Below the pieces are notes generated by a model. That model made no database searches, was not told the DNA's origin, and was given only the letters and a program-made list of their open reading frames with translations. From Kutzneria kofuensis (GTDB lineage: Bacteria > Actinomycetota > Actinomycetes > Mycobacteriales > Pseudonocardiaceae): a stretch of 64,000 nucleotides of DNA. Made by a program: the position numbers and the translations under genes. Positions 37,911 to 51,451 of this stretch are shown one piece after another (position 1 is the stretch's first letter; the number at the start of each line of letters is the position of its first letter). The stretch lies in the NCBI RefSeq assembly GCF_014203355.1, contig NZ_JACHIR010000001.1:5830038-5894037 (forward strand), given 5' to 3'.

Positions 37911-39902
37911 GTGCGAAGAACTCCAGCGATGCTGCTTGCGCTGGCGATGGCCGGGGCCGGTATGACCGGCCTGGTGCCGTCCGCCGCCGCGGCGGGCCAG
38001 TCCGTGATTCCGGACTCGCACCCGCGGTGGGCCAGCCCGAACGCCAAGGTCGGCAACGCCGACGCGGCGAGCAAGCTGACCTTCCGGGTGTACCTGAAGC
38101 TGGCCGACCAGGCCGGGCTCGAGGCCGCGGCCACCGCCGTGTCCGACCCGACCAGCCCGTCCTACCGCAAGTTCCTCAGCACCGACCAGGTGCGGACCCG
38201 GTTCGCGCCGACCGCCGGTGCGGTCTCCGCGGTGCGCAACTGGCTGACCTCGGCCGGCTTCGCCGCCGGCGAGGTGCCCGCCAACAACGCCTACGTCGAG
38301 GCCACCGGCACGGTCGACCAGGTGCAGAAGGCGTTCGGCGTCACCCTGGGCGAGTACCGGGTGCAGGGCAAGACGCTGCGGTCCCAGGACCGCGCGCTGT
38401 CGGTCCCGGCCGCCGTCGCGTCGTACGTCTCCGGCGTGATCAACATCGATCAGGCCACGGCGCTGCTCAAGCCGTCCCACGTGGGCGCGGCCGGCGACGC
38501 CACGCCCGACGCGGTGCAGCCCAAGGCCAAGACGAGCCAGCCCGCGGTGGCCCCGCCGCCGGCGGCCTTCGTCAACGCTCGGCCCTGCTCGGACTACTAC
38601 GGCCAGCAGGTCGACACCACCGACCCGGCCTACGCCGGCAAGCAGCTGCCGTACGCGGTCTGCGGCTACACGCCGCCCCAGCTGCGCGCCGCCTCCCAGC
38701 TCGACATCGCCGGCCGCTTCGGCCTCGACGGCCACGGCGTCACCGTCGCCATCGTCGACGCGTTCGCCTCGCCGACGCTGTACGCGGACGCCGCCGAGTA
38801 CGCCAAGCGGCACGACCCGGCGCACCCGCTGACCAGGTCCCAGTACAGCGAGATCGTGTTCCCGCCGACGCCGGGCTCCGAGGACCCCGACCAGTGCGAC
38901 GCCTCCGGCTGGTACGGCGAGCAGAGCCTGGACGTCGAGGCCGTGCACGCCATGGCCCCCGGCGCGAAGATCCTCTACGTCGGCGGCGCCGACTGCTCGG
39001 ACGAGGGCCTGGACAAGGCGCTGAACACGATCGTGTCGAAGAACCTGGCGCAGATCGTCTCCAACTCGTACGGCAACAACGGCGAGGACGTCCCCGCCGA
39101 CGAGGTGCAGGCGTTCCAGTCCATCGCCATCCAGGCGGCGGCCGAGGGCATCGGCGTGTACTTCTCCTCCGGTGACGACGGCGACGAGAGCCACGACCTG
39201 GGCCACCCGTCGGCGGACTTCTCCGCGACCAGCCCGTGGGTGACCGCGGTCGGCGGCACCAGCCTCGGCATCGGCAAGGACGGCCGCAAGGTGCTGGAGA
39301 CCGGGTGGGCCACCGGCAAGTCCACGCTGACCAACGGCGCGTGGAACCCGCCGGCGCCGGGCGCCTGGCTGTACGGCTCGGGCGGCGGCACCTCCGTGCT
39401 GTTCCCGGAGCCCAACTACCAGAAGGGCGTCGTGCCGGACGCGCTGGCCAAGCAGAACCAGACCGGCAACAACCGCGGCCGCGTCGTGCCGGACATCTCG
39501 ATGGACGGCGACCCGACCACCGGCATGCTGATCGGCATCACGCAGACCTGGCCCGACGGCAGCGTCAAGTACGGCGAGTACCGCATCGGCGGCACCAGCC
39601 TCGCGTCGCCGCTGATGGCCGGCCTGATGGCCGTCGCCGACCAGTTCGGCGGCCGGCACGGGTTCATCAACCCGTGGCTGTACAAGGCCCTGTCGCACAC
39701 CCCGGCGGTCACCGACGTCAAGCCGGTCGACGGCGGCTCGGTCCGTGTCGACTACGTCAACGGCATCGACGCCACCGACGGCTACGTGCGCAGCGTCCGG
39801 TCGTACAACGACCCGGACCAGACCATCCACACCACCCGCGGCTACGACAACGTCACCGGCCTCGGGACGCCCAACGGCCTGCTCTTCCTGGGCCTGATCT
39901 AG
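37911..39902 (+). CDS. Secreted sedolisin (S53) peptidase with pro-kumamolisin domain
   Basis: This 663-residue secreted acid-type serine peptidase has a signal peptide (1-28, ending AAAAG). An activation domain (about 35-190, SYRKFLSTDQVRTRFAPT and GVINIDQA) precedes the catalytic domain. Sedolisin residues are in YGEQSLDVEAVHAMAPGA (Glu and Asp four apart), SSGDDGDES (Asp), and IGGTSLASPLMAG (Ser). The end YDNVTGLGTPNG is the calcium-site loop. The GTG at 37911 has GAAGGGG upstream. A terminator hairpin follows. It probably feeds on protein. Confidence 0.92.
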   Translation: MRRTPAMLLALAMAGAGMTGLVPSAAAAGQSVIPDSHPRWASPNAKVGNADAASKLTFRVYLKLADQAGLEAAATAVSDPTSPSYRKFLSTDQVRTRFAPTAGAVSAVRNWLTSAGFAAGEVPANNAYVEATGTVDQVQKAFGVTLGEYRVQGKTLRSQDRALSVPAAVASYVSGVINIDQATALLKPSHVGAAGDATPDAVQPKAKTSQPAVAPPPAAFVNARPCSDYYGQQVDTTDPAYAGKQLPYAVCGYTPPQLRAASQLDIAGRFGLDGHGVTVAIVDAFASPTLYADAAEYAKRHDPAHPLTRSQYSEIVFPPTPGSEDPDQCDASGWYGEQSLDVEAVHAMAPGAKILYVGGADCSDEGLDKALNTIVSKNLAQIVSNSYGNNGEDVPADEVQAFQSIAIQAAAEGIGVYFSSGDDGDESHDLGHPSADFSATSPWVTAVGGTSLGIGKDGRKVLETGWATGKSTLTNGAWNPPAPGAWLYGSGGGTSVLFPEPNYQKGVVPDALAKQNQTGNNRGRVVPDISMDGDPTTGMLIGITQTWPDGSVKYGEYRIGGTSLASPLMAGLMAVADQFGGRHGFINPWLYKALSHTPAVTDVKPVDGGSVRVDYVNGIDATDGYVRSVRSYNDPDQTIHTTRGYDNVTGLGTPNGLLFLGLI

Positions 39903-40139: not shown

Positions 40140-41159
40140 TCAGCGCAGCGAGCGGTTGATCTTGCGGATCAGGCCGGGGCCCTCGTAGATGAAGCCGGTG
40201 TAGACCTGCACGAGGTCGGCGCCGGCGTCGATCATCCGCTGTGCCGAGTCGGGGTCGAAGATGCCGCCGACACCGATGATCGGCAGCCGGCCGCCGGTTT
40301 CCTTGTGCACCAGGCGGACCACCTCCAGTGCACGGGCCGCCAGCGGCCGGCCGGACAGGCCGCCGGTCTCCTCGGCCTTGGCTCGGTCCGACGCGGCGAG
40401 GCCGTCCCGGCTCAGGGTCGTGTTGGTGGCGATCACGCCGCTGATCTCGTGCTCGCCGCAGACCTCCAACAGCTCGCCGATGGCGCTGTCGGTGAGGTCG
40501 GGGGCGATCTTCACCAGCAGCGGCCGGTTGTCGGCGTTCTCCTCCTGGATGCCGGCCAGCAGCTCGTTGAGCGCCGCCCGGTCCTGCAGCGAGCGGAGGC
40601 CGGAGGTGTTGGGGGAGCTGATGTTCACGGCGAAGTAGTCGCCGTGCCGGCCGAGCACCCGCATCGAGTGCCGGTAGTCCTCGACGGCCCGCTCGACCGG
40701 CGTGACCTTGGACTTGCCGAGGCTGATGCCCAGCGGCACCGGCAGCGGCCCGAGCCGGTCCAGCCGGTCCGCAAGCGCTTGCGCGCCCCGGTTGTTGAAG
40801 CCCATCCGGTTGATCACGGCCTCGCTGTCGGGCAGCCGGAACAGCCGCGGCCGGTCGTTGCCCGGCTGCGCGTGCCGGGTGACGGTGCCGACCTCCACGA
40901 AGCCGAAGCCCAGCGCCGGCCACGCCGGCAGCGCGACGCCGTCCTTGTCCATGCCCGCGGCCAACCCGACCGGGTTCGGGAAGTGCACGCCGAACACCGT
41001 GCGCGGCGCCACCACGCCGTACCGGGCGCGCAGCGCCGACAGCACCGGCGGCATCGCGGCGACCCGCCGCAGCACGGTCATCGTGCGCTCGTGGGCCACC
41101 TCGGGGTCGCCCCCGCCGAACCGGAACAACGTCCTGCGGACCAGCTGCTTGTACACCAC
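40140..41159 (-). CDS. pyrD: Dihydroorotate dehydrogenase (quinone), class 2
   Basis: This 339-residue FMN enzyme oxidises dihydroorotate to orotate in pyrimidine synthesis, passing electrons to the quinone pool. The N-terminal helix pair ([20 protein letters not shown]) is the class 2 membrane-contact region. FMN and substrate motifs are [12 protein letters not shown] (63-74), [21 protein letters not shown], the catalytic-serine segment [15 protein letters not shown] near 178, and [13 protein letters not shown] near 293. The GTG at 41159 gives the usual start. It is monocistronic here. Confidence 0.95.
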
Positions 41160-41294
41160 GGGCCCTATCGTGCCTGGTCACGGCGGGCACGCGAACGGTG
41201 GCCACCGGTGGTGTGACGCAGCCGACGCCGCGAGTAGCCTGGATCGTCGTGCCCGGTTGAGGAACTGCCGGGGAATGCCCGGGACGACGAGGGG

Positions 41295-42506
41295 GTGTTC
41301 GACGTGTCGTACCAGAGCCTGCCGCCGGCGGCGGCGCGGCTGTACCGGCTGCTCGCCATGCATCCCGGGGCCGACTTCGACGCTGACCTGGCCACCGCGC
41401 TCGATCCGGACGGCGAGGAGCTGCTGACGACGCTGGCGAAGGCCGGTCTGCTGCGGGCCTCGCACGGCGACCGCTACTCGTTCAGCTCGCTCGCCCAGGG
41501 GCACGCCCTGCAGCAGCTGCACCGCACCGACAGCGCGGCCGAGCAGCTCGCGGCGCTGCGCGCCATGGTGTGGTGGTACGTCGACCGCGCGATCGCCGCC
41601 GACAAGGTGATTTCCGCGCAGCGGTGGCGGTTGAGCGAGCGCTACGCGGACGTGCCGGCCTTCGACGGCGACGACGCCGAGGCGATGGACCTGCTGGAGC
41701 CGGACCGCGCCAACTTCGTGCAGGTGGCGACCGCCGCGTACGAGTCCGAAATGGACGATGCCGTGCTGGCGCTGGCGGAGGCGTTGTGGGGCCTGTACTT
41801 CCACCGCCAGCTGTACGCGGACTGGAAGACCGTCAACGAGGTCGCGGTGCGGGCGGCCGTGCGTCGCGAGGACAAGCGGGCCGAGGCGCGGATGCGCTGC
41901 CAGCTGGGGTTCCGCCACTACGCGCTGGACGATTTCGCCGCCGCCAGGGCGGAATTCGTCGCCGCCGTGGCGGTCGAGCCGGCCGATCACCCTCGGGGGC
42001 TGGCCACCGACCTGGAGTCGCTCGCCCTGGCCCACTTCAGCCTGGGTGAGCACGCCGAGGCCCTGGACTGTATCGAGCGGGCGATTCCCCTTGCCCCGCA
42101 GGACCAGCAGCGGGCGCTGCTCAGCCACCACCGGGCCCGCGTCCTGTCCGCGCTCGGCCGCTACGACGAGGCGTTCGCCGGCCTCGGCGCGGCGCTGAAG
42201 CACACGCAGGACAAGGGTGATCGCTACAACGAGGGCCGGGTGCTGGCCAGCATCGGCGAGACCTTCCTGCGGACCGGCGAGCCGGCCAAGGCCGCGGCCG
42301 AGCTGGGCCGTGCCCTGGCGGCGATGGTCGAGAAACGCCGGATGTTCCAGGAGGCAGTCGTCCGCGGCCTGCTCAGCCAGGCCCACGAGCAACTCGGCGA
42401 CCGTGCGGCCGCGCTGGACGAGGCCCGCAAGGCGCACGCCATCCTGCACGTCCTGGAGCACCCGCGCGAACCCGTTGCGCGGCAACGGCTCGACGAGCTC
42501 AGCTGA
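41295..42506 (+). CDS. Winged-helix/TPR protein resembling the C-terminal half of an AfsR/STAND regulator
   Basis: This 403-residue protein starts where the winged helix of NB-ARC (STAND) regulators normally follows the ATPase: SYQSLPPAAARLYRLLAMHP (about 5-24), then LAKAGLLRASHGDRYSFSS. A helical domain (about 80-200) and about five tetratricopeptide repeats (200-400, e.g. LESLALAHFSLGEHAEALDC) follow. No P-loop, SARP or other signalling domain is present, so it is either a stand-alone scaffold or a regulator that has lost its motor. GTG 41304, ten bases after GAGGG, may be the true start. The next gene, convergent, encodes an amyloid-motif protein. Confidence 0.72.
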   Translation: MFDVSYQSLPPAAARLYRLLAMHPGADFDADLATALDPDGEELLTTLAKAGLLRASHGDRYSFSSLAQGHALQQLHRTDSAAEQLAALRAMVWWYVDRAIAADKVISAQRWRLSERYADVPAFDGDDAEAMDLLEPDRANFVQVATAAYESEMDDAVLALAEALWGLYFHRQLYADWKTVNEVAVRAAVRREDKRAEARMRCQLGFRHYALDDFAAARAEFVAAVAVEPADHPRGLATDLESLALAHFSLGEHAEALDCIERAIPLAPQDQQRALLSHHRARVLSALGRYDEAFAGLGAALKHTQDKGDRYNEGRVLASIGETFLRTGEPAKAAAELGRALAAMVEKRRMFQEAVVRGLLSQAHEQLGDRAAALDEARKAHAILHVLEHPREPVARQRLDELS

Positions 42507-42648: not shown

Positions 42649-43044
42649 TCAGTCGTGATGCACGATGCGGTCGATGTTGCCGGCCTGCACGACGAATCCG
42701 GAGACAGCGCCGTTGATGTTGTTGTTCACGCCGCCCGACTTCGCCGTCTGCGTCACGGTGTTCCTGGTGACGGCGATCTCCGCCTTCGCCGCGCTCCACA
42801 GTTCGCGCAGCTCGGCGGCGAACGCGGGGTCGTTCTCCTCGGTCCGGTGCAGCACCGTGGCCAGCGCGTCGACCCACTTCGTGTCGTCCGGGTTCTCCTG
42901 CGCCTGCGCCAGGACCACCTCGGAGCCGGGATCCTTGGCGAACTTCTCCTTGACCCGCTGCAGGAGCTTGCCGATGGCCTTGCCGCCGACGGTCACGGCC
43001 TCCTTGGCCAGCGCGCCGGCGATGGCAGTCAGGATCGGATCCAT
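42649..43044 (-). CDS. Small helical protein with C-terminal RHIM-like amyloid signalling motif (candidate cell-death effector)
   Basis: This 131-residue protein has a hydrophobic, Gly/Ala-rich N-terminal helix (residues 3-28, ILTAIAGALAKEAVTVGGK), a helical body to about 95, a Ser/Gly linker, and at 107-124 NNNINGAVSGFVVQAGNI. That end matches the N-x3-G-x3-G-x-VVQAG-x-I pattern of bacterial amyloid signalling sequences (BASS3 type), which resemble the animal RHIM core. In actinobacteria such motifs end small Bell-domain effectors, thought to be HeLo-like membrane-killing proteins switched on by NLR partners. The layout here is the same. No partner motif is visible in the neighbouring WHD/TPR protein. 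The effector role is inferred from architecture. Confidence 0.65.
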   Translation of the reverse strand: MDPILTAIAGALAKEAVTVGGKAIGKLLQRVKEKFAKDPGSEVVLAQAQENPDDTKWVDALATVLHRTEENDPAFAAELRELWSAAKAEIAVTRNTVTQTAKSGGVNNNINGAVSGFVVQAGNIDRIVHHD

Positions 43045-43144
43045 ACCTCACCCCTCGTAACGGCAATCGCTCAACGGTAGCAGCGCGGGCGGTTCGAAGG
43101 AGTGCAAGCGCGGTGTGGCGGTGCTCGCCACCCGGGCGGAGTAA

Positions 43145-43942
43145 TCACGCCGTCGGGCCGGGTTGGCAGTGCGGGCAGTACCAGGTGGGCCGCTGCTGCA
43201 GCCCGCTGCCCTGCACGGCCCGTACGACGGCGTGACCACAGCGCAGGCAGCGCTTGCCGTGCCGTTCGTACACCCAGTGCTGCCGGCCCCGCGTGGTCTC
43301 CCCGGTGGTCGACTGCTCGGGGCGCCACGCGTTGCGTAGCAACAACTTGTGGCTGAGCTCGACGGCGCGGGCCGCGTCGGTGGCGGAGACCGGCGACCAG
43401 GGGGAGACGCCGAGCAGGAAGCAGACCTCGGCCTTGTACAGGTTCCCGACCCCGGCCATCACCCGTTGATCGAGCAGCGCGAGGCCGATCTCCCGGGCCG
43501 GGTCGGCGGTGAGCCGGCGGGTCGCCTCGGCGGCCATCGCGGCGTCCCAGTCCGGGTGCAGCAGGTCCGGCCCGAGGTGCCCGACCAGCCGGGACTCCTC
43601 GGCGGTCGGCAGCAACTCCAGGTCGTGCAGGAGAAAGCCGACAGCCGAACGGTCCGAAGTGGACAGAATGGCGCGGACCTGGTGCGACGGCCGGCGCCAG
43701 CGGTCGCCGGGGCGGTACAGGTGCCAGCTGCCGTCCATTCGGAGATGGCTGTGCAGGCTGACGCCGTCGCCGAGGCGGGTGAAGATGTGCTTGCCCACCG
43801 AACCGACGCCGACCACCTCGCGGCCCGTGAGGTCCACAGTGGACAACGAGGGGTGGCGGATCTCCCCGCGCGTCAACGTGTTTCCGGCCAACGCGTCGTT
43901 CAGCCGGTGCGCGGTGAGGAAAACCGTGTCGCCCTCGGGCAT
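43145..43942 (-). CDS. DNA glycosylase/AP lyase, Nei2 (endonuclease VIII-like)
   Basis: This 265-residue Fpg/Nei-family repair enzyme removes oxidised bases. Start MPEGDTVF gives the catalytic N-terminal Pro and Glu in the Nei form (Fpg has MPELPE). The helix-two-turn-helix is LLDQRVMAGVGNLYKAEVCF (about 158-177). The C-terminal zinc finger has CLRCG and CPHCQ (about 230-258). The Lys of VGKHIFTRL near 49 is the conserved beta-hairpin residue. Its ATG overlaps the last base of the ParA-type gene stop, so the two are co-translated. Confidence 0.92.
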   Translation of the reverse strand: MPEGDTVFLTAHRLNDALAGNTLTRGEIRHPSLSTVDLTGREVVGVGSVGKHIFTRLGDGVSLHSHLRMDGSWHLYRPGDRWRRPSHQVRAILSTSDRSAVGFLLHDLELLPTAEESRLVGHLGPDLLHPDWDAAMAAEATRRLTADPAREIGLALLDQRVMAGVGNLYKAEVCFLLGVSPWSPVSATDAARAVELSHKLLLRNAWRPEQSTTGETTRGRQHWVYERHGKRCLRCGHAVVRAVQGSGLQQRPTWYCPHCQPGPTA

Positions 43943-45725: not shown

Positions 45726-46967
45726 TCAGAAGCCGGTGGTGCCGTGCGGGGTGCCGAGGCCGGTCGGCCCGTCGTAGCCGGGGACGGAGGTGCAGAGGTA
45801 GGTGCCGCCGCAGCTGCCGTTGGAGCCGGTGGTGACGTCGTTCAGCCCGGACGTGTGCGAGTACGGGTAGGAGCCGGAGGTCACGGAGTTGCCGGCCAAC
45901 GCGTACACGCTGGCGATGATGGGCGAGGAGAGGCTGGTGCCGCCGACCTGCACCCAGCCGTCGGCGCCCTGGGCGAGCCCGAGCGCGATCAGGAAGTCGC
46001 AGAAGGAACTGGTGCCGCAGCTGTTGTAGGTGTCGTAGATGCCGAGCCCGGAGGCGGGGTCGGCGACGGCGGAGACGTCGGAGACGGTCCGGTTGGCGCA
46101 AGCGGTGTCGTGCTGCCAGGACGGCTTGGGCTCGATGGCGGAGCAGCCGCTGCCGGCGCCGGACCAGGCCTTCTCGGCCCAGCCGCGAGGGGTGCCGGCG
46201 GCCTTGGTGAGGGTGGTTCCGCCGACGGCGGTGACGTAGGGCGAGGAAGCGGGCCAGCTGACGCCGTAGCCGGAGTCGCCGGAGGAGGCGGTGACGGCGA
46301 TGCCGGGATGGTTGAGGTGCGCGTCGGCGGCGGTGATGGTGCCGTCCTCGGCGCCGCCGTAGCTGTTGGAGATGGCCACGACGCCAGGGGTGTTGGCGGC
46401 GGTGTCGACGGCCGTCATCAGCGGGTCGGTGTCGGGGGAGTTGGCCTCCACCAGCAGGATGTGGCAGTCGGGGCAGGTCGCGGAGACGGCATCCAGGTCG
46501 AGGCTGATCTCCTCGGCCCAGCCGTAGTCACCGGCCGGCAGCGGGCTGGTGGCCCCGTTCTGGTTCACCTTCTTGAAGCAGCCGTTGGCCGTGGTGCACG
46601 GCGAAAGCCCGCGCTTGCTGCGGAACACGGCGAGGTCGGCCTCGGCGGTCGGCGCGTCCATGGCGTCCACGATGGCCACGGTGCGACCGCCGGAGAGCAG
46701 GCCGGTGACGCCGTACGCGGACTGGATGTCGGTGGGCGCGAGGCCGACGGGGGTGGTGACGGTCATCGGGCCGGGGCCGTTCGGCGACTTGATCGCCTTG
46801 CCCAGGCAACGGAAGTGAGCATGGCTCGTGGCGCAGCCGAGATCGACCAGGCCGCCGGACAGCAGCGGGGCGGCCTGGGCCACGGGAGCGGTGAAGGACA
46901 GGGGGACGAGCGCGGCGGCGGCCAGCGCGAGGACGGTGAGGAATCGGGATCTGCCGCAGGGTGACAT
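45726..46967 (-). CDS. Secreted S53 (sedolisin-type) peptidase without propeptide domain
   Basis: This 413-residue secreted peptidase has a signal peptide (1-32, ending AQAA), a short cysteine-containing segment, and directly the catalytic domain. Sedolisin residues are in WAEEISLDLDAV (Glu153 and Asp157, four apart), SSGDSGYGVSWP (Asp231) and VGGTSLSSP (Ser near 338). Unlike the sedolisin at 37,911 it has no pro-kumamolisin domain of about 170 residues. Cysteine pairs (e.g. CPDC, CANRT, CGTSSFC) suggest disulphides. The ATG at 46967 has a perfect TAGGAGG. Confidence 0.88.
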   Translation of the reverse strand: MSPCGRSRFLTVLALAAAALVPLSFTAPVAQAAPLLSGGLVDLGCATSHAHFRCLGKAIKSPNGPGPMTVTTPVGLAPTDIQSAYGVTGLLSGGRTVAIVDAMDAPTAEADLAVFRSKRGLSPCTTANGCFKKVNQNGATSPLPAGDYGWAEEISLDLDAVSATCPDCHILLVEANSPDTDPLMTAVDTAANTPGVVAISNSYGGAEDGTITAADAHLNHPGIAVTASSGDSGYGVSWPASSPYVTAVGGTTLTKAAGTPRGWAEKAWSGAGSGCSAIEPKPSWQHDTACANRTVSDVSAVADPASGLGIYDTYNSCGTSSFCDFLIALGLAQGADGWVQVGGTSLSSPIIASVYALAGNSVTSGSYPYSHTSGLNDVTTGSNGSCGGTYLCTSVPGYDGPTGLGTPHGTTGF

Positions 46968-48724: not shown

Positions 48725-48753
48725 TTGTTCATCCCTCGTTTTTGTTGTATTCT
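48725..48753 (+). promoter_or_regulatory. Promoter of the LuxR-family gene, probably leaderless
   Basis: TTGTTC (48725-48730), a 17-base spacer, and TATTCT (48748-48753) form a good housekeeping-type promoter. Transcription would start about seven bases later, at or next to the ATG at 48761. No ribosome-binding sequence precedes that ATG, so the message is probably leaderless. The 195-base gap to the divergent small-peptide gene is AT-richer than its surroundings. Confidence 0.6.
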
Positions 48754-48760
48754 GGCCCGC

Positions 48761-51451
48761 ATGCTGATCGGGCGCGGCCGCGAGCTGTCCCGGCTCACCG
48801 CTCGGGTCCGCGAACTCGCCGGTGGCCGGGGTGGGGCGGCGTTCGTCGACGGCGAGCCCGGCATCGGCAAGACCACGCTGCTGCGCGCGGTGTGCGACGC
48901 CGCCGCGGAAAACGGTTGCCGCGTGCACTGGGGCGCGGGTGACGAACTCGGCCGGCTGCTCCCCCTGCTGCCGCTGCTGGAGGCGCTGCGCGCGGAGCGT
49001 TCCGACGAGGGGCAGGCCGTGCTGCGCCTGCTGCGCGGCGAGGTCCCGACCGTGCTCGACCCGTCCGCGGTCGCGGCGGAACGCGTGCTGGGCATGGTCG
49101 AGGAACTGTGCGCGGACGGCCCGGTGGTGCTGGCGATCGACGACCTGCAGTGGGCGGACAAGGTCACCGTCGCGGTGCTCAGCCGGCTGGTGAAGCTGGT
49201 CGACCAGCTGCCGCTGCTGCTGGTCGGCACGCTGCGCCCGGTCCCGGTCCGCGACGACCTGTCCGCGCTGTGGCGGCAGCTCGGCGCCGACGGCCAGGTC
49301 AGCCTGGGGCCGCTGCCGGCGGAGGCGATCGGCGAGCTGGTCGCCCAGCTGGTCGACGCGCACCCGACGGACGAACTGCTCCGGCACGCCGAGGGCGCGG
49401 CCGGAAATCCGTTGTACGCAACGGAGCTCGTCACCGCGGTGGCGGACGGCGCCGACCGCCCCGGCTCGTTGGCCGCCGCGATCGACCACCGGCTGGACTT
49501 CCTGTCCGAGCAGACCCGGCACGTGCTGCGCGCCGCGACCCTGCTCGGCGTCGTGTTCTCCGTCGCCGACCTCGGCGTCGTGCTCGGCCGCACGGTCGCC
49601 GAGCTGCTGCCCGCGCTGGACCAGTCGACCGCGGCCGGCGTGCTCGTCGAGTCCGGCGACGGCCTGTCGTTCCGGCACGCGTTGGTGCGATCCGCCCTGT
49701 ACGAACGGATGTCGCCGCCCGTACGGACCGCATGGCACCTGGAGGCGGCGCGGCTGCTGGCCGACGCCGGCTCGCCGGTCGAACGCGTCGCCAAGCAACT
49801 CTTGGTCGCCTCCGGCGCCGACGACTGGACCGTGGACTGGTTGTGCGACAACGCCGGCGCGCTCATCGGCCAGTCCCCGTCCGCGGCCGTGGACCTGCTG
49901 CGCCGCGTCCTCGCCACGCCCCGCTGGGACGCCCGGCGGCTGTCGCTGGCCAGCCGGTTCGCCGACGCGCTGTACCGAACCGGCGATTTCGACGAGGCCG
50001 AGCAGGTCGCCACCCGCGCGCTCGCGCTGTCCGCCGACCCGGTGCAAATCGTGTGGCTGCACCACATTCTGTTGCAGTGCCGCAGCATGAGCGGCCGTGT
50101 CGCGCAGTCGCTGGTCGAACTGGACCGCGCGTTGTCAGACCCGGACACCACCGGCCGGGTGCGGGCCCGGCTGCTCGTGCTCACCGCCCGTGCGCACTGG
50201 AATCTCGGTGACGCCGACGCCGCCGAGAAGACTGCGCTCGACGCCGCCGACGCCGCGCCCGCCGACGAATGGGTTGTCGGCTGGTCCCTGCACGTCCGCA
50301 GCATCGTCCTCATCATGCGCGGCGACATGGCCGGCGCCCTGGAGCTGCTCGACCACGCCGTGCGGGTGATCGGCCGCGACGGCGCGACCGCGGAGCTCAG
50401 CCTGCTGCTGCGCATCAACCGCGCCGTGGCGCTCGGCGGCGTCGACCGCTGCGACGAGGCGGTGGCCGCCGCCCGAGACGTACGTCAACTGGCCGAGCAT
50501 GTCGGCAACACGGTCCGGTTGGCGCAGGCGCAGAGTGCCCTCGTACAGATGTCGTACGACTCGGGGTGCTGGGACGACGCGCTGGTGGACGTGGACCTGC
50601 TCGCCGACGAGCTGAAGAACCCGGTGGTGGCCGCGGCCGACCACAGCATCGCCGCGCTGATCAAGCTGCACCGCGGCGATCACGCCGCCGCCGGCCGGCA
50701 CCTGGCCATCGTGCGGGCGGCCCAGGTGGGCCGGCATCCCGTGCTGCACATGGCCTTGGCGACCAGCCTGGAGCTGGAGCAGGCCGGCCGCCTGGACGAG
50801 GCGCTGGCCGCGCTGCACACCTCCGCCGACTTCGACGACGTGCTGCCGGTGATCGTCCGCCTCGCGGTGGCCGTCGGCGACCTCGACACCGCGCGGGAGA
50901 CCACCGAGCGGGTCGTCGAGCTGGCGGCCGATTCCGAGGTGCAGCACCGGATCGGGGCCGCCGCGTACTGCCGGGGGCTGGTCGACCGCGACGGCGAGGA
51001 GCTGCTGCGCGCGGCCACCGCCTACCGCGAGTGCGGCCGTCCGCTGGCCCGGGCCATGGCGCTGGAGGCGGCCGCCGCCGCGTTTGTCCACAGCGGACAG
51101 TCGAGTTCGGCGCGGGCCGCCGCGTCCCGGTCGCTCGACCTGTACGCGGAGCTCGGCGCCGAGTGGCAGCTGGCCCGGGCGCAGTCGGTGCTGCGGGCGC
51201 TCGGCCTGCGGCGCGGCCCGAAGGTCAAGCACCGCCGGGCGAAGACCGGGTGGGACAGCCTCACGCCGGCCGAGGCGACCGTCGCCCAGCTGGTGGTGGC
51301 GGGCCTGTCCAACCCGCAGATCGCCGAGCGGCTGTTCGTGTCCCGCCGCACGGTGACCACGCACGTCTCGCACATCCTGGCCAAGCTGCAGGTCCGCACC
51401 CGTACGGACATCGCGCGGGAGGCGAGCCTGCGCCAGGCCGCGTCCGGCTGA
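48761..51451 (+). CDS. Large LuxR-family ATP-binding regulator (LAL/MalT-like)
   Basis: This 896-residue STAND-type activator has an AAA ATPase at the N-terminus (Walker A GEPGIGKTT at 31-39; Walker B VVLAIDDLQWAD near 128) and a long TPR-like helical middle (about 350-820). A LuxR helix-turn-helix ends the protein (about 835-890, LTPAEATVAQLVVAGLSNPQ, then SRRTVTTHVSHILAKLQVRT). LAL regulators respond to a ligand and often switch secondary-metabolite or sugar genes. No biosynthetic cluster is adjacent; the tiny secreted peptide gene upstream is the only divergent neighbour. The ATG at 48761 starts at LIGRGREL, the family's usual start. Confidence 0.9.
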   Translation: MLIGRGRELSRLTARVRELAGGRGGAAFVDGEPGIGKTTLLRAVCDAAAENGCRVHWGAGDELGRLLPLLPLLEALRAERSDEGQAVLRLLRGEVPTVLDPSAVAAERVLGMVEELCADGPVVLAIDDLQWADKVTVAVLSRLVKLVDQLPLLLVGTLRPVPVRDDLSALWRQLGADGQVSLGPLPAEAIGELVAQLVDAHPTDELLRHAEGAAGNPLYATELVTAVADGADRPGSLAAAIDHRLDFLSEQTRHVLRAATLLGVVFSVADLGVVLGRTVAELLPALDQSTAAGVLVESGDGLSFRHALVRSALYERMSPPVRTAWHLEAARLLADAGSPVERVAKQLLVASGADDWTVDWLCDNAGALIGQSPSAAVDLLRRVLATPRWDARRLSLASRFADALYRTGDFDEAEQVATRALALSADPVQIVWLHHILLQCRSMSGRVAQSLVELDRALSDPDTTGRVRARLLVLTARAHWNLGDADAAEKTALDAADAAPADEWVVGWSLHVRSIVLIMRGDMAGALELLDHAVRVIGRDGATAELSLLLRINRAVALGGVDRCDEAVAAARDVRQLAEHVGNTVRLAQAQSALVQMSYDSGCWDDALVDVDLLADELKNPVVAAADHSIAALIKLHRGDHAAAGRHLAIVRAAQVGRHPVLHMALATSLELEQAGRLDEALAALHTSADFDDVLPVIVRLAVAVGDLDTARETTERVVELAADSEVQHRIGAAAYCRGLVDRDGEELLRAATAYRECGRPLARAMALEAAAAAFVHSGQSSSARAAASRSLDLYAELGAEWQLARAQSVLRALGLRRGPKVKHRRAKTGWDSLTPAEATVAQLVVAGLSNPQIAERLFVSRRTVTTHVSHILAKLQVRTRTDIAREASLRQAASG

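Follow-up and report, generated by a model that had tools for sequence, protein, structure and literature searches.

The window analysed here, a 64,000-nucleotide stretch of the 10.4-Mb genome of the soil bacterium Kutzneria kofuensis, holds a gene for a 131-residue protein that ends in a short glycine-punctuated motif and lies beside a gene derived from an NLR (Table 1). The locus raises two questions: what kind of protein the small gene encodes and, should this be an effector, which receptor would trigger it. The reading that we favour, and consider likely from sequence comparison, is that of a Bell-like effector in a BASS amyloid-signalling pathway, with a BASS2-like motif and with its receptor NLR encoded elsewhere in the genome. 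An amyloid-signalling, Bell-like effector is well supported because the C-terminal motif is conserved, the same motif stands before P-loop NTPases in the manner of NLRs, and the body shows remote profile similarity to proteins with BASS3-type motifs.

Table 1. Features of the effector locus, in window coordinates.
Feature	Coordinates	Strand	Remarks
Effector gene, 131 aa (P0002)	42649..43044	-	ATG start; coding-type codon composition by gene caller
Helical body, residues 1-90, Bell-like	42775..43044	-	Hydrophobic helix at the N-terminus; D72-P73-x-F75 and L79-R80 conserved
Amyloid-signalling-type motif, residues 105-128, GGVNNNINGAVSGFVVQAGNIDRIV	42661..42732	-	Profile and alignment
Neighbour, 403 aa: winged-helix and TPR end of an NLR, NTPase and motif missing	41295..42506	+	Convergent with effector; alternative start GTG at 41304
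Deletion scar	41249..41294	+	Place of the sister species' full-NLR start codon (GTG); stop after three codons here
pyrD (dihydroorotate dehydrogenase)	40140..41159	-	Conserved flank, outside the system; present in 5/5 other genus loci
Fpg/Nei-type DNA glycosylase gene	43145..43942	-	Conserved flank, outside the system

The 131-residue open reading frame proposed by an earlier, sequence-only reading of this DNA was confirmed, and the minus strand, which that reading did not give, can now be added. A plus-strand open reading frame in nearly the same place (42665–43060) was set aside as an antisense frame, the gene caller having picked the minus frame. The fpg-type gene lies on one side of the effector gene, and the convergent TPR gene followed by pyrD on the other; promoter and terminator scans found neither element. 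A search of 100 genomes found relatives of the effector in 33 of them at E ≤ 0.01, most of these genomes belonging to its own family. The effector matches no curated family, whether in NCBIfam, in PADLOC or in Pfam, where the best E of 0.1 is below cut-offs; PADLOC has no match for the neighbour either. Further out, the window encodes a large AAA/LuxR-type regulator (48725–51451, plus strand; PF13191 and PF00196) and, near the locus, two secreted-protease-like genes conserved in the genus (37929–39902, plus strand; 45726–46967, minus strand), which we take to be of the S53 type; the Pfam scan covered the second of the two and gave no significant match for it.

The layout previously described for the C-terminus, N108-x3-G112-x3-G116-x-V118-V-Q-A-G122-x-I124, is present as claimed. 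The motif is found in 28 of 30 aligned sequences (the window protein and 29 proteins obtained from 31 loci, L025 and L031 having been missed), the exceptions being L024 and L149; of the two missed loci, L025 carries the motif, and the larger locus of L031 (L148) has no motif match. Across the larger loci, 26 of 30 have a C-terminal motif match above 12 bits (all except L142, L144, L148 and L149). Conservation over the 30 aligned sequences is highest at G112 (30), followed by Q120 (28), N108 (26) and V106 (25), and the mean relative entropy of the motif columns exceeds that of the body (2.60 versus 1.94), so that the motif is the better conserved part. The pattern that the sequence-only reading had set against its own proposal, a body kept and the 107–124 segment lost, is rare (two of the 30 aligned sequences and one further locus), since nearly all homologues carry the motif, which is also more strongly conserved than the rest of the protein. 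At L149 (G001:C22), the effector body is fused to a long, different C-terminus that replaces the motif (352 aa).

Scored against a C-terminal profile of 22 non-genus homologues, from which the motif-less L024 and L149 were omitted, the window protein reaches 33.3 bits (E 2.5e-8 for 10,000 sequences), whereas 5,000 shuffled versions of its tail score 15.0 bits at most; the motif is therefore more than chance. It is retained by the effector at all six genus loci, and the window copy is the second weakest of these, only that of G006 scoring lower. The family consensus reads GGV-x-N-x-x-S-G-T-V-x-G-x-V-V-Q-A-R-D-I-x-G-x-I-x-F; the window protein departs from it at R126 and I127 (position 126 is glycine in 26 of 30 sequences) and lacks the family's last glycine.

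Since the neighbouring gene has neither switch nor motif, the trigger would have to come from receptors elsewhere in the genome. The sequence-only reading had suggested looking for an NLR with the same motif at its N-terminus, and such proteins exist in the same genome. A motif profile built from effectors only gives 18 matches there up to E 10, among them NLR-type proteins at C1:7095907 (NB-ARC, E 1.1e-8, with TPR), C1:8363704 (NB-ARC, E 3.1e-8, with TPR) and C1:7852833 (NACHT, E 9.1e-9). The motif-bearing protein at C1:5741585 has weaker NTPase matches, that at C1:7971233 has a P-loop by pattern alone, that at C1:8694879 (L134) is an NLR with a frame broken between motif/P-loop and remainder, and at C1:8703393 the motif is internal. 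The motifs of C1:7095907, C1:8363704 and C1:5741585 each beat 1000 of 1000 shuffles. NB-ARC matches in this genome number 66 in total. An attempt to name the receptor by motif subtype, using the loss of the last glycine common to the window effector and several NLRs of its genome, was by eye and too weak to be retained.

Over the genus, the motif profile has 75 matches at E ≤ 0.1, in six of seven genomes. In 50 regions taken from six genus genomes (10 from the genome of the window and 40 of the better-scoring others), there are 50 motif matches above 15 bits; of these, 32 stand just before a P-loop, four at the extreme C-terminus of short proteins and 14 in neither place. By comparison, only one of 244 motif-free frames of at least 300 aa in the same regions has such a P-loop, a loose control that includes non-coding frames. 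Within ~6 kb of the effector, a motif-bearing NLR with a strict P-loop was found at four of 30 homologue loci (L121, L123, L125 and L146), so that most of these loci lack one nearby; at L122 the motif scores 30.0 bits on a protein without a strict P-loop, at L116 it is borderline and at L117 not significant. In G025 the effector lies ~120 bases upstream of an adjacent motif-bearing NLR on the same strand. A second, seemingly NB-ARC-less gene at L123 proved to be a start-calling artefact, its open frame being a full NLR. The other motif-bearing NLRs of the genome are likely to be the receptors.

The motif occurs on other proteins as well. A 253-aa protein of the same genome, encoded near glycolytic-type genes (L138:4284-5045; C1:823283-824044, minus strand), ends in the effector motif, in the form TNTINGTSTNTVQAHTIKGGIHFG, and has no match in Pfam, NCBIfam or PADLOC; a 280-aa protein of G004 (L219) ends in the motif as well, and both are presumably cyclase-like. 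A short frame at L140 (C1:2185028, same genome) carries a motif that closely resembles the one on a 650-aa frame of G006 (L209), and looks like an NLR remnant.

Section 9 of PMC7889193 describes Bell effectors as small alpha-helical domains that have a hydrophobic helix at the N-terminus and bear the motif at the C-terminus. The window protein shows this layout, with a helix of moderate hydrophobicity and a poor model. The structure prediction for which the sequence-only reading had called, made by AlphaFold2 from three sequences, shows five helices plus a disordered tail, in a poor, low-confidence model (mean pLDDT 55.7). The hydrophobic N-terminal helix claimed by that reading holds as a helix (residues 3–14 in this low-confidence model), but its hydrophobicity is moderate, with a best Kyte–Doolittle mean over 18 residues of 1.33 from residue 4 and no clear membrane segment. 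A profile of the body gives weak sequence-profile matches to proteins with BASS3-type motifs that are not significant (E 0.23–0.65). Compared by hhalign with five Bell-like domains, taken from the N-termini of proteins that carry a BASS3-type motif or are similarly laid out, the body reaches a probability of 84% over 65 columns, with an E value of 7e-6 that refers to this one comparison, and the reversed control reaches 3.5%. The layout agrees with that of a Bell-type effector, and we take the profile-profile comparison, single-profile matches being not significant, as moderate support for a Bell-like domain. The genome encodes a second Bell-like body, joined to a different tail (L243; C1:3476576-3476833).

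The absence of a strong membrane segment from the body bears on a different interpretation, in which the motif, amyloid-type or of another assembly class, scaffolds signalling and the body is an adaptor or an enzyme regulator instead of a killer. The motif at the C-termini of the 253-aa and 280-aa proteins, and on several proteins without a strict P-loop, would also suit such a role. We nevertheless think it rather unlikely, the architecture agreeing with that of Bell effectors as given in section 9 of PMC7889193 and the body being a remote match to them.

If the gene is a Bell-like effector of the BASS type, an NLR encoded elsewhere in the genome and carrying the motif at its N-terminus would use its TPR part to sense a danger signal and its NTPase to oligomerize. 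The clustered NLR motifs would then nucleate a cross-beta core and recruit the C-terminal motif of the effector, and the Bell-like domains brought together in this way would attack the membrane or halt growth in some other way. The scheme follows section 9 of PMC7889193, in which the NLR senses, oligomerizes and templates the effector motif, and the Bell domain attacks the membrane. Sequence comparison shows the motif, its conservation across the family, its place at the N-termini of NLRs in the same genome and its loss, with the NTPase, from the neighbouring gene; that amyloid forms and templates the effector, that the membrane is attacked, that cells die in defence, and which receptor acts, is inferred. 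The effector is probably a self-destructive protein. Weighing against this reading are the weakness of the window motif, the poor structure model, the lack of a clear membrane segment, the non-significant single-profile matches of the body, the scarcity of motif-bearing NLRs near homologues and the absence of a PADLOC match.

Effectors of this class had been expected beside NLR genes, and the neighbour in the window is indeed NLR-derived, but it has lost both motif and NTPase, so that no complete NLR adjoins the effector here. The encoded protein starts within the winged-helix region, which in NLRs comes after the NTPase, and its best relative in the same genome is the wHTH-TPR part of C1:7095907 (35% identity, E 1.3e-44). 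The gene is found at the same locus in six of seven genus genomes, at 54–85% identity outside the window's own. In the sister species G006 the locus encodes a protein of 643 aa that comprises motif, P-loop NTPase and TPR part (85% identity), with one gene between this complete NLR and the effector. Two profiles give the G006 motif (L115) 12.9 and 17.5 bits, neither score being reached by any of 1000 shuffles; the NTPase aligns to AfsR/HaaT-type models but has no Pfam NB-ARC match at E 0.01.

Measured against G006, the 723 bases from the start codon to the winged helix can be aligned over only 49 bases in the window, 244 in G002, 204 in G005, 23 in G001 and 56 in G004, and in most of these genomes the front remnants fall below the TPR part in identity. 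In G002 the motif persists with a frameshift, together with part of the NTPase, which contains a stop. In G005 the motif remnant is in the TPR frame, but a shift of one base separates it from its old start, and for this reason an intact motif-wHTH-TPR fusion was considered there and rejected. By these alignments, the front of the neighbour is deleted or scarred in the window and in four other species; the different remnants across species indicate that the direction was deletion, not insertion, and that at least the final losses were separate. The open literature, taken as excluding subscription papers and preprints, yielded nothing on beheaded NLRs beside such effectors.

The remaining TPR part nevertheless evolves under constraint, as judged from codon substitution. 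It contains no stop in any of six genomes, and its pairwise YN00 dN/dS is 0.09–0.15 for computable pairs. Fitted by branch over four genomes (G001 and G004 lying outside the fit, on a weakly resolved tree with bootstrap 55–68), dN/dS is 0.113 for the window, 0.137 for G002, 0.097 for G005 and 0.085 for the intact G006; the method is rough, branch-wise values for Fpg being erratic (0.009 to 0.185). Compared with the intact gene, the TPR part is 0.93, 0.90 and 0.77 identical at codon positions 1, 2 and 3. A simple calculation puts the share of a branch that could be neutral at ~6% or less. Constraint on the truncated genes is concluded because long free drift would give far higher dN/dS; it is less clear in G004, where NG86 gives 0.55–0.70 for the TPR part versus 0.27–0.33 for pyrD. 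The low values elsewhere may instead reflect a very recent loss of the front in every lineage, against which stands the fact that the front is almost gone.

These data also weigh on the possibility that the locus is decaying, with a broken receptor and with effector and TPR remnant both on the way out, which we judge quite improbable. Retention of the motif by the effector at every genus locus speaks against it, as do the TPR dN/dS of 0.10–0.14 on the three truncated branches fitted, near the value of the intact branch, and the excess of identity at codon positions 1 and 2 over position 3; in its favour are the different scars with which the neighbour's front was lost in five species, the conserved glycine lost from the window motif, and the fast evolution of the effector (NG86 dN/dS 0.38–0.83 over 15 pairs versus 0.12–0.33 for pyrD). 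If the orphan TPR protein is instead functional, it may act as a decoy, a brake or a co-sensor. We tentatively propose, as a possibility somewhat short of an even chance, that repeated decapitation in five species has kept the TPR sensor as a decoy or brake, or as a co-sensor in trans, and has turned a pair acting in cis into a network of many receptors.

The class of the motif is best guessed to be BASS2. A passage of PMC9815663 places the 3-mer ARD at the C-terminal end of BASS2, and the guess is made because the family consensus, ending VVQARDI-x-G, fits this signature; the window copy itself reads AGN and lacks the last glycine, and the likeness is drawn through the ARD remark. The sequence-only reading had named the RHIM-like BASS3 class. 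The VQAG of the window protein does resemble the first half of the RHIM core, the glutamine being common to both, but the protein scores -0.0 bits against the BASS3 profile (one printed peptide, Frankia ORT49035.1 from Table 2 of PMC8086366, and six genomic relatives), profile-profile comparison with the motif family gives a probability of 0.4%, Pfam shows no RHIM match up to E 1, and D and I stand where BASS3 examples, which read G-V-Q-V-G-x-x-N-x-Q, have N and the second Q, so that this class, whose core Q-V-G-x-x-N-x-Q is absent from the protein, is very improbable and the earlier assignment falls. VQAG is moreover peculiar to some members of the family, the residue after VQA being R in 18 and G in seven of the 30 aligned sequences. 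A BASS3 protein described in PMC9815663 has conserved glutamines seven apart (Q113 and Q120); the residue seven after Q120 of the window protein is I127, not glutamine. A search with the BASS3 peptide at E ≤ 1 found clear relatives in nine of 60 genomes, and none in the genome of the window. Reading RHIM from a short VQxG string is thus misleading.

Among known systems, the BASS3, RHIM and PP motifs share with the BASS2-like motif favoured here a short, glutamine-centred build on an effector of similar construction, but differ in sequence pattern and show no profile similarity. The fungal motifs of the HRAM (HET-s) type have the same general look of a short, glycine-punctuated motif; a comparison of the motif profile with solved structures returned no HET-s, its sole match up to E 10 being an autolysin at E 1.9. 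The complete receptor of G006 and the trans receptors align to the AfsR/HaaT-type NB-ARC-TPR models of NCBIfam over NTPase and TPR parts, but far below equivalog cut-offs (82.0 and 274.1 bits versus 1430 for AfsR), and they carry an N-terminal motif where AfsR has a DNA-binding part.

The closest likeness is to the BASS/Bell amyloid NLR signalosomes of filamentous bacteria, reportedly described by Dyrka and colleagues in 2020: a small helical protein with a C-terminal motif, NLRs with an N-terminal motif and a multicellular actinobacterial host. The difference is that the neighbouring NLR has here lost motif and NTPase, and that matching receptors are encoded elsewhere in the genome. Whereas the effector by itself would add one member to a known class, the locus offers a natural series of complete, scarred and beheaded NLRs in close species, with the effector kept throughout. 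This series makes it testable whether amyloid-linked NLR sensors work without a switch of their own, and whether several receptors drive such effectors in trans, an arrangement invisible to the usual search for adjacent gene pairs.
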